Both the position numbers and the translations under genes were made by a program. A model generated the notes under the pieces. It was not told the DNA's origin, searched no databases, and was given only the letters and a program-made list of their open reading frames with translations. From Flavobacteriaceae bacterium (GTDB taxonomy: Bacteria; Bacteroidota; Bacteroidia; Flavobacteriales; Flavobacteriaceae): a DNA stretch of 51,665 nt. Where the stretch lies: contig JANTFO010000003.1 of assembly GCA_024763365.1 (NCBI GenBank), positions 1 to 51,665 of the forward strand. Direction: 5' to 3'. Positions 49,450 through 51,665 of the stretch are shown piece after piece; position 1 is the first letter of the stretch, and each line of letters begins with the position of its first letter.

Positions 49450-49485
49450 GAATTCTTAATTCTTAATTTTTAAATTCTGAATTCA
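49450..49485. repeat. AT-rich microrepeat (GAATTCTTAATTCTTAATTT) before hypF
   Basis: Imperfect repeats of a TTAATTC-type unit fill the short gap between the asparaginase stop and hypF. They overlap the expected hypF translation start, and no ATG, GTG or TTG is in frame there. Confidence 0.75.
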
Positions 49486-51665
49486 TTCCACATACATATT
49501 CAAGGCATCGTTCAGGGCGTAGGTTTTCGCCCTTTTGTTTATAAAATGGCATTGCAAAATGATTTAAAAGGCTGGGTCAACAATACCTCTGATGGGGTAC
49601 ATATTCATTTGACTGATACTGAGCAAAATGCAAAGCATTTTCTGGATGCACTCTTAAAAAATTTACCACCCCTCGCTGTAGTGACACATTATCATATTGA
49701 AGAAATTGAATCTGATGAAAAATTTGAGCGTTTTGACATTGTAGAAAGTACAGAGCAATCCAAAACCAACCTGCTGTTAACACCCGATGTCGCTATATGC
49801 GAAGATTGTCGAAAAGAGTTGCATGATATTAAAAACAGGCGTTATCAATACCCTTTCATTACTTGTACAAACTGTGGCCCACGTTACTCGATCATTAAGA
49901 AGTTACCTTATGACAGGCCATTTACCACGATGAAAAAGTTTGAAATGTGTCCTACTTGCCAGATAGAATATAATAATCCGTTAGAACGAAGACATTATTC
50001 TCAAACCAATTCTTGTCCGGATTGTGCCATTGAAATGCAACTTTTTAAGGTGTCATCTCAAGAACAAGCATTGAGCGAAGTCACAGTAACCTCAAAAAAA
50101 ATCATTAATAATTTTACCGACTTATCATTAATTACAGATTATTGGCATAAAGGAAAGATTATTGCTATCAAAGGAATAGGAGGATATTTATTGACTTGTG
50201 ACGCTACTAATCCTCAAGCAATTGAAAAGCTTAGAAAACAAAAGCACCGGCCCACAAAACCTTTTGCTTTGATGTATCCTTCTTTGGAGATTCTTAAAAA
50301 TGATGCCTACGTGAGTGAGTTGGAGCAAAAAGAACTCTTAAGTATATCAGCACCCATCGTCCTATTACAACCTAAAGGTAAATTGAATTCAAAACTGGCT
50401 TTGGATAAGATCAATAAAGGTTTATCAAAAATAGGGGTTATGCTGCCTTATACACCTTTGATGGATTTGCTATTAACAGATTTTGAAAACCCCATTATTG
50501 CTACATCCGGAAATATTTCTAATTCTACAATAATTCATCAGGATGAAACGGCCATCAAAGAACTCAGCCCTATTGCGGATTTGATATTGATGAACAACCG
50601 GGATATATTAATGCCTCAAGATGATGGGGTAGTTCAATTTTCCCCTGTTTATAAACAAAGGATCACCTTACGTCGTTCTCGCGGAAAAGCTCCGGTATAT
50701 ATCAATTCGGCCATAAAAGTGCCTCAAACCCCATACTTTGCACCGGGCTCTATGTTGAAAAGTGTTTTTGGCTTTACCCATGAGCAGAATTTTTATATCT
50801 CTCAGTATTTAGGTAATACGGAAAGTTATGATGCGCAAAAGAATTATGAAAATACTTTTAAACACCTAAACGGCATTTTCGCAACCAAATTTGATAAAAT
50901 CATAGTCGATAAACACCCGGATTATTTTGCGACACGTTTTGGTAAAAATTTAGCTGAAAAACATCATGCAGAAGTTGTAGAAATACAACATCATAAAGCT
51001 CATTTTTGGTCGGTTTTGGGTGAACATAATTTGATGGAAACCGACGAGTCAGTTTTGGGTGTAATTTGGGATGGTACAGGCTTGGGTGATGATGGTAACA
51101 TTTGGGGAGCTGAGTTTTTCAAATATGAAAACAGGAAAATGGATCGCGTAGCACATCTGGAGGAATTCCCTTTTATGTTGGGCGATAAAATGGTTTTGGA
51201 ACCACGTATTTCGGCATTTGTGCTTTTTCATGATAAACCTGATGCAGAAAATTGGTTAAAACCTAAATTTTCAAAAACAGAATGGAATGTTTATCACAAA
51301 CTTGTTAAGAATACAAAGCTGAAAAGCACCAGCATGGGCCGTTTGTTTGATGCAGTATCGTCACTTTTATTTGGTTTTGACAAACATACTTTTGAAGCTG
51401 AAGCCAGTATGCAATTGGAGAACCAAGCGCTTAAATTCCAATCCCAACTGTCACCTCGAGCTGAGTCGAGAGGTCTTTTGGGCTCACACTCATATTTAAA
51501 GAAAGAAAATCCTTCAAGTTTTCTAAAGTTTCTTTTAAATAATATTCTTAAAGATCTAAATGACGAAAAACCCAAAGACGAAATAGCCTATAAATTCCAT
51601 GTTACTTTGGTTGATTATATCGGTAGGATAGCACAAAAGTTTGATATCAGATCTTTAGCATTTAG
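49477..51665 (+). CDS. hypF: Carbamoyltransferase HypF (3' end beyond window; non-ATG start)
   Basis: Makes the cyanide ligands of [NiFe] hydrogenases from carbamoyl phosphate, passing thiocarbamate to HypE. The frame is open from 49474 to the right edge, about 730 codons of the usual 750-770. Domains in order: acylphosphatase (GIVQGVGFRPFVYK), two zinc fingers (CEDC/CTNC, CPTC/CPDC), a YrdC-like domain (about 195-385) and the Kae1-like domain (HHKAHF, WDGTGLGDDG). The track missed it because it has no stop in the window. The first in-frame ATG (49546) would remove the acylphosphatase loop. ATT at 49474 or CTG at 49477 is the only option ahead of it. A palindromic repeat (51449-51480) is inserted in frame. 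Confidence 0.93.
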   Translation, partial: MNSFHIHIQGIVQGVGFRPFVYKMALQNDLKGWVNNTSDGVHIHLTDTEQNAKHFLDALLKNLPPLAVVTHYHIEEIESDEKFERFDIVESTEQSKTNLLLTPDVAICEDCRKELHDIKNRRYQYPFITCTNCGPRYSIIKKLPYDRPFTTMKKFEMCPTCQIEYNNPLERRHYSQTNSCPDCAIEMQLFKVSSQEQALSEVTVTSKKIINNFTDLSLITDYWHKGKIIAIKGIGGYLLTCDATNPQAIEKLRKQKHRPTKPFALMYPSLEILKNDAYVSELEQKELLSISAPIVLLQPKGKLNSKLALDKINKGLSKIGVMLPYTPLMDLLLTDFENPIIATSGNISNSTIIHQDETAIKELSPIADLILMNNRDILMPQDDGVVQFSPVYKQRITLRRSRGKAPVYINSAIKVPQTPYFAPGSMLKSVFGFTHEQNFYISQYLGNTESYDAQKNYENTFKHLNGIFATKFDKIIVDKHPDYFATRFGKNLAEKHHAEVVEIQHHKAHFWSVLGEHNLMETDESVLGVIWDGTGLGDDGNIWGAEFFKYENRKMDRVAHLEEFPFMLGDKMVLEPRISAFVLFHDKPDAENWLKPKFSKTEWNVYHKLVKNTKLKSTSMGRLFDAVSSLLFGFDKHTFEAEASMQLENQALKFQSQLSPRAESRGLLGSHSYLKKENPSSFLKFLLNNILKDLNDEKPKDEIAYKFHVTLVDYIGRIAQKFDIRSLAF
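51449..51480 (+). repeat. Palindromic interspersed repeat inserted in frame in hypF
   Basis: CACCTCGAGCTGAGTCGAG followed by AGGTCTTTT closely resembles the short palindrome family spread through Bacteroidota intergenic DNA (GTCACCTCGAGCGCAGTCGAGAGGTCT type). Here it lies within hypF and is read as QLSPRAESRGLLG, without breaking the frame. It falls in the linker between sub-domains of the Kae1-like part, before LKKENPSS. Confidence 0.75.

Follow-up and report, generated by a model that had tools for sequence, protein, structure and literature searches.

The stretch of DNA analyzed here (the window, 51,665 nt, reaching the end of contig C3) comes from a draft Flavobacteriaceae genome of 2.0 Mb in 149 contigs, and its last two kilobases are occupied by hypF, the only full-length copy of this gene in the genome. 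Within hypF lies a short repeat unit that is read as coding sequence. The features are:

49477–51665, forward strand: hypF, encoding the carbamoyltransferase HypF (TIGR00143, E = 3.2e-196, above the cut-off); the 3' end is cut by the contig end
51448–51519, forward strand: linker of HypF between helices 641–656 and 681–694 (AlphaFold model m17defc34c17a and alignment), occupied by the unit in this genome and by an unrelated repeat in the Polaribacter MAG L029
51450–51476, forward strand: 27-nt repeat unit GTCACCTCGAGCTGAGTCGAGAGGTCT in hypF, with borders from the 159-copy alignment and the copies in the same genome
51449–51452, forward strand: TGTC tag at the 5' end of the unit; T precedes GTC in 139 of 159 copies
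51455–51459, forward strand: left arm of the palindrome core, CTCGA (from the fold)
51466–51470, forward strand: right arm of the palindrome core, TCGAG (from the fold); the loop, GCTGAG, occupies 51460–51465

The hypF frame is open from just after a TAA at 49471–49473, through the unit, to the contig end. No ATG is present near the conserved N-terminus, where the TAA is followed by ATT CTG AAT TCA (49471–49482). In two congeners, L005 and L006, a TTG occupies the position of this CTG, and the start of hypF is therefore probably the CTG at 49477.

The unit is an imperfect palindrome of nine codons, in frame within the open hypF, and encodes the end of L657, S658–G665 (SPRAESRG) and most of L666 (numbering from 49480). 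Its core, CACCTCGAGCTGAGTCGAGAGGT at 51452–51474, is the sole match in the window even when up to three mismatches are allowed, and at this tolerance no match is expected by chance (100 shuffled windows). Alignment of independent copies widens the core to GTCACC...GGTCT, that is, to 27 nt, and the hypF copy equals the family consensus TGTCACCTCGAGCGCAGTCGAGAGGTCT at 26 of 28 letters. The presence of a palindrome translated in frame inside hypF, claimed in an earlier sequence-only reading, is thus confirmed, but the palindrome is a weak one: it folds into a 5-bp core stem with a 6-nt loop at −3 kcal/mol as DNA, with a z-score of about 0. A strong hairpin was considered for the unit and found unsupported on folding.

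We compared the window HypF with five relatives, four from the same genus (L005–L008) and one from another family (L030); the nearest complete HypF shares about 62% identity. The segment bounded by the conserved LE and SYLK motifs is 23 residues long in the window protein vs 16 in all five relatives, a net gain of seven residues (+21 nt) located exactly at the unit. In the AlphaFold model (mean pLDDT 84.7), the unit lies at the end of helix 641–656 and in the connection to helix 681–694, with a pLDDT of 58 at residues 661–670 vs at least 90 from residue 681 on, and the alignment shows that the length of this loop varies among homologues. These results bear out the proposed variable-linker location and the expectation that close homologues would be shorter exactly here. 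The in-frame translation also holds, but the expected 10–13 residues do not: about nine come from the unit, and the net gain is seven. Two of the terms used earlier need narrowing. HypF is essential for hydrogenase maturation only, and "exapted" is too strong for nine residues with no evident function, for which "tolerated in-frame insertion" fits better.

Repeats cause misassembly and the unit lies only about 190 nt from the end of contig C3 (51665), which raises the question of an assembly or binning artefact of the draft genome. However, the sequence to either side of the unit aligns with HypF without a change of frame, and in-frame copies also occur in single-contig genomes such as G199 and G159, the latter with the unit in PyrD and HisA; we therefore consider an artefact very improbable.

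Pattern searches, on which all copy counts in this genome (G000) rest, identified further copies outside hypF. One, at C131:2029–2054, has a membrane-protein gene on one side and on the other a gene that by eye resembles lysyl-tRNA synthetase, another lies at C63:4681–4703, upstream of a gene resembling purC, and a weaker one at C38:14935. Agreement among the four copies (C3, C131, C63 and C38) is confined to the unit, and their flanks are unrelated. The same genome holds a sister palindrome, TGTCATTTCGAGCGGAGTCGAGAAATCT, in about eleven copies inside a longer MITE-like element with 18-nt terminal inverted repeats, AGAAGCCGTCTCATAAGC and GCTTATGAGACGGCTTCT (L050, L052–L055, L057, L058, L061 and L063–L065). 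This terminal-inverted-repeat element is a possible vehicle for the palindrome it carries.

The unit is spread through the family. With one mismatch allowed, the pattern GTCACCTCGAGCNNAGTCGAGAGGTC matched 60 of 299 Flavobacteriaceae genomes at up to 13 copies each, and its reversed control matched none of them; the family label of this sample was inferred from the kin of hypF matches. Among 118 genomes sampled across the phylum the exact form was found in Flavobacteriaceae members only, so that the earlier description of a "common Bacteroidota" palindrome was too broad for this form, while the prediction of many further copies in genome and family, mostly intergenic and some in frame in genes, proved correct. 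Retrieval at up to two mismatches gave 159 copies in all, whose consensus holds from TGTC to GGTCT and gives way at either border to random flanks. One genome, G085, has arrays of many closely spaced copies in the GTCCCCTCGAG form (L217, L218 and L219); elsewhere the copies are single.

As a short, mostly intergenic palindrome that carries a fixed tetranucleotide on one side, the unit recalls a classical REP mobilized by a host RAYT (Y1 transposase), and a Y1_Tnp gene is indeed present in this genome (C93:2527-2871). We regard this origin as improbable, since (i) the best Y1_Tnp locus of this genome (L075) has no copy of the motif beside it, (ii) among the relatives' Y1_Tnp loci scanned there is only a divergent look-alike, upstream in L069, (iii) the tag is TGTC rather than GTAG, and (iv) Y1_Tnp is absent from 7 of the 11 copy-rich genomes. 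As most copy-rich genomes do without one, a dedicated RAYT is probably unnecessary for persistence of the unit. No transposase linked to the unit was found. We infer, with considerable uncertainty, that it is a non-autonomous element that depends on an enzyme supplied in trans; the copies may also have spread by recombination with one another.

Next, we analyzed copies lying within coding sequence, requiring an open frame of 200 codons or more overall that extends no fewer than 40 codons to either side of the unit. Twenty-seven of the 159 copies are in frame within such long ORFs, and represent 22 distinct sites because five pairs are orthologous. Of positions drawn at random from the same loci, 60% satisfy this open-frame criterion vs 17% of units (27/159), which indicates that the copies avoid genes without being excluded from them. 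In-frame copies use five of the six frames, in both orientations: VTSSAVERS (10 copies), SPRAQSRG (7), DLSTALEV (7), PLDSARGD (2) and HLERSREV (1). The sixth frame, which contains a stop in 103 of the 159 copies, has no in-frame copy.

These observations bear on whether the linker residues in HypF could have a local origin, through point mutations and minor slippage within a variable loop, with the likeness to the repeat being coincidence or protein-level convergence. Although the HypF loop differs in length among homologues and the net gains depart from an exact 27 nt, a match of 26 of 28 letters to the repeat has no counterpart in shuffled sequences or in reversed controls, and protein-level convergence cannot produce the same DNA read in five frames in different proteins. 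A local origin is accordingly most unlikely. Based on these observations, we propose that 51450–51476 is very probably a genic copy of a short, TGTC-tagged, imperfect palindromic repeat of the Flavobacteriaceae that came to lie in the linker between the two helices of HypF and has been retained as coding sequence. That it arrived by insertion is suggested by comparison with relatives at about 60% sequence identity.

Besides HypF, the unit is in frame in about 20 protein families. Hosts identified above curated-model cut-offs are ValS, MetG, PurL, HemW, RNase R, MvaD, HisA and PyrD; RecJ and a 3-hydroxyacyl-CoA dehydrogenase (HADH) are also confirmed by curated models, and Mfd and MetH match theirs as cut fragments. 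Assigned by eye only are MenE, a dihydrolipoyl acyltransferase-like protein, glycosyltransferases and restriction enzymes. Some hosts carry more than one repeat. The mfd gene of L106 has two unit copies 296 codons apart and in different frames, the first of which (residue 367) gives a net gain of 0 relative to relatives. Several repeats stand in frame at one site in MetG of L102 (about residues 457–510), and a compound in-frame run occupies one site in PurL of L209 (residues 467–530), each forming a long interdomain spacer. In HisA of L160 and L205 the unit sits beside a second, decayed copy in the same loop (VISSKVEKSQ, MSVRAQSR).

Relatives without the unit are shorter at the site. The residues gained are nine in PyrD, eight in both HADH and a mannosyltransferase-like protein, about 11 in HemW, 13 in RNase R, five to nine in MetH and six in ValS (+18 nt), with the smallest gains in RecJ (four) and MvaD (two, +6 nt). 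In most genes the net gain thus differs from 27 nt, ranging from 0 to +13 residues and being larger where repeats are piled up. Such non-constant gains imply that target bases were lost on entry, that loops were trimmed later, or that sequence was replaced rather than inserted. A search for exact insertion borders, in ValS of congeners, in MvaD and in 14 further genes, yielded none, since the loops are too diverged and the gains vary, and no exact empty site was found among the relatives compared. No target duplication was seen at unit sites in the genes compared. Decayed copies are present at orthologous sites in HADH (NVTLSAVEESQ), RNase R (NITTSEVERSQ) and MetG (NVTSSVVETSW), and a RecJ orthologue has an identical copy at the same site (MSPRAESRGQ), which suggests that the insertions are inherited and age by substitution with the frame kept.

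The third of these options, replacement, is what would be expected if copies spread by recombination or template switching between one another (ectopic gene conversion, or replication slippage at hairpins). The spread of gains from 0 to +13 residues, where +9 throughout would be expected of simple insertion, the compound palindrome runs at single sites in MetG and PurL, and the lack of a dedicated transposase are all consistent with such a process. On the other hand, the flanks of the copies have no homology outside the unit, leaving nothing from which homologous conversion could start, and PyrD shows a clean gain of nine. Taken together, we consider this route unlikely, though worth keeping in view.

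In the insertion model that we favor, entry of a full-length unit would keep the host frame, because 27 nt make up nine codons free of stops in five of the six frames. Insertions into folded cores or in the stop-containing frame would be lost by selection, while those in loops would persist, be inherited and decay by point mutation. Most likely, the nine residues are neutral filler.

The HypF linker has also been occupied by a second repeat. In the Polaribacter MAG (L029) it contains about 23 extra residues, including SSPPWEGIEGR, coded by CCCCTCCTTGGGAGGGGATTGAGGGAAG; this repeat belongs to a different family, CCCCTCCTTNGGAGGGG, with 15 matches in its genome (G331) vs none for the reversed control. 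Five of the 15 copies lie in long frames, not each proven to be a gene, and one of these is in the hypF linker; the loci concerned are L029 and, in G331, L284 and L286–L289. Because two unrelated repeats occupy it, the HypF linker appears to be a permissive site. More broadly, we put forward the tentative idea, to which we give somewhat less than even odds, that two or more unrelated families of very short palindromes in Flavobacteriaceae and their kin repeatedly enter housekeeping proteins in frame, do so with no transposase of their own, and independently hit the same permissive loops, in hypF twice. If this is true, such repeats would be a general source of new enzyme loops in free-living bacteria, and selection may act on the frame-keeping length of 27 nt itself.

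Occurrence of the nine-codon unit at more than twenty sites, in tRNA synthetases, in enzymes of purine, pyrimidine and histidine biosynthesis and in repair enzymes, and at various stages of decay, offers a natural series for studying how an inserted loop comes to be tolerated and absorbed by its host protein, and for identifying the mover of such elements where a RAYT is absent. It shows that working proteins can acquire loops from small DNA repeats. For annotators and structural biologists, VTSSAVERS, SPRAQSRG and DLSTALEVT in flavobacterial proteins should be read as repeat-derived and not as functional motifs.

Translation of palindromic repeats within conserved proteins was first seen as a peculiarity of Rickettsia, and later in other REP-bearing species. 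Our literature search returned no match for the letters of the repeat and, for in-frame repeats in Bacteroidetes, only papers on REPs, RPEs and MITEs; the list of intragenic REPs compiled by Di Nocera et al. may hold an earlier sighting in a Bacteroidetes genome. Palindromes inside genes being already known from RPEs and from GTAG and CGTC REPs, whose intragenic copies (PMC3733652) are a further functional parallel, the new part is limited to a variant with broad in-frame use in Flavobacteriaceae.

The closest functional parallel is with the Rickettsia palindromic elements (RPEs; Ogata et al. 2000, 2002). Like the unit, these are interspersed palindromes that occur in intergenic regions as well as in frame in genes for conserved enzymes (PMC2229807, PMC3733652). 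They measure 105–146 bp, have long stems and belong to Rickettsia, where production and activity were demonstrated for one or more host proteins (PMC2229807), whereas the unit is 27 nt long, has a 5-bp core and belongs to Flavobacteriaceae. The parallel with RPEs drawn in the sequence-only reading is therefore sound in the sense of "works like", and does not extend to formal membership of the family.

With respect to ends and distribution, the unit resembles the CGTC-tagged REPs (Di Nocera et al. 2013), a group that includes RPE-4 and RPE-6 and has Bacteroidetes among its five phyla (PMC3733652). Their tag is often TGTC, or CCTC, and no RAYT flanked by CGTC repeats was reported (PMC3733652). 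Shared features are a fixed CGTC/TGTC end, a short palindrome, a mostly intergenic location and the lack of a flanking RAYT, and some CGTC REPs are likewise intragenic, including copies in repair genes and tRNA synthetases (PMC3733652). As described there, families CGTC-1 to CGTC-4 have a stem of 8–9 bp with A-T in the first and second pairs, a loop of 4–5 nt and an unpaired tail that is mostly CCA (PMC3733652). The unit, in contrast, has a core stem of 5 bp, a loop of 6 nt, C-G as its second outer pair (A-T in the sister form TGTCATTTCGAG...AAATC) and a consensus tail of CTT after GGT, and it occurs mostly as single copies where, in the same account, CGTC REPs are head-head dimers. We keep it out of CGTC-1 to CGTC-4 because stem, loop and CCA tail fail to agree.

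Two wider comparisons place the unit among small repeats. A general definition describes REPs as 14–40 nt long, with a common motif, several copies per genome, seldom overlapping coding regions and able to form a stem-loop (PMC12306157), and the unit fits it in size, motif, copy number and rarity of coding overlap, the strong stem excepted. GTAG REPs with a RAYT are dispersed palindromes of the same size class, but the unit is tagged TGTC and most copy-rich genomes have no RAYT. Finally, MITEs with in-frame fusions (ERIC/RU-1, RU-2 and RU-3) are, like the unit, non-autonomous repeats fused in frame to ORFs (PMC2229807), although they span about 100–200 bp and carry terminal inverted repeats, as opposed to 27 nt and none in the unit (PMC2229807).
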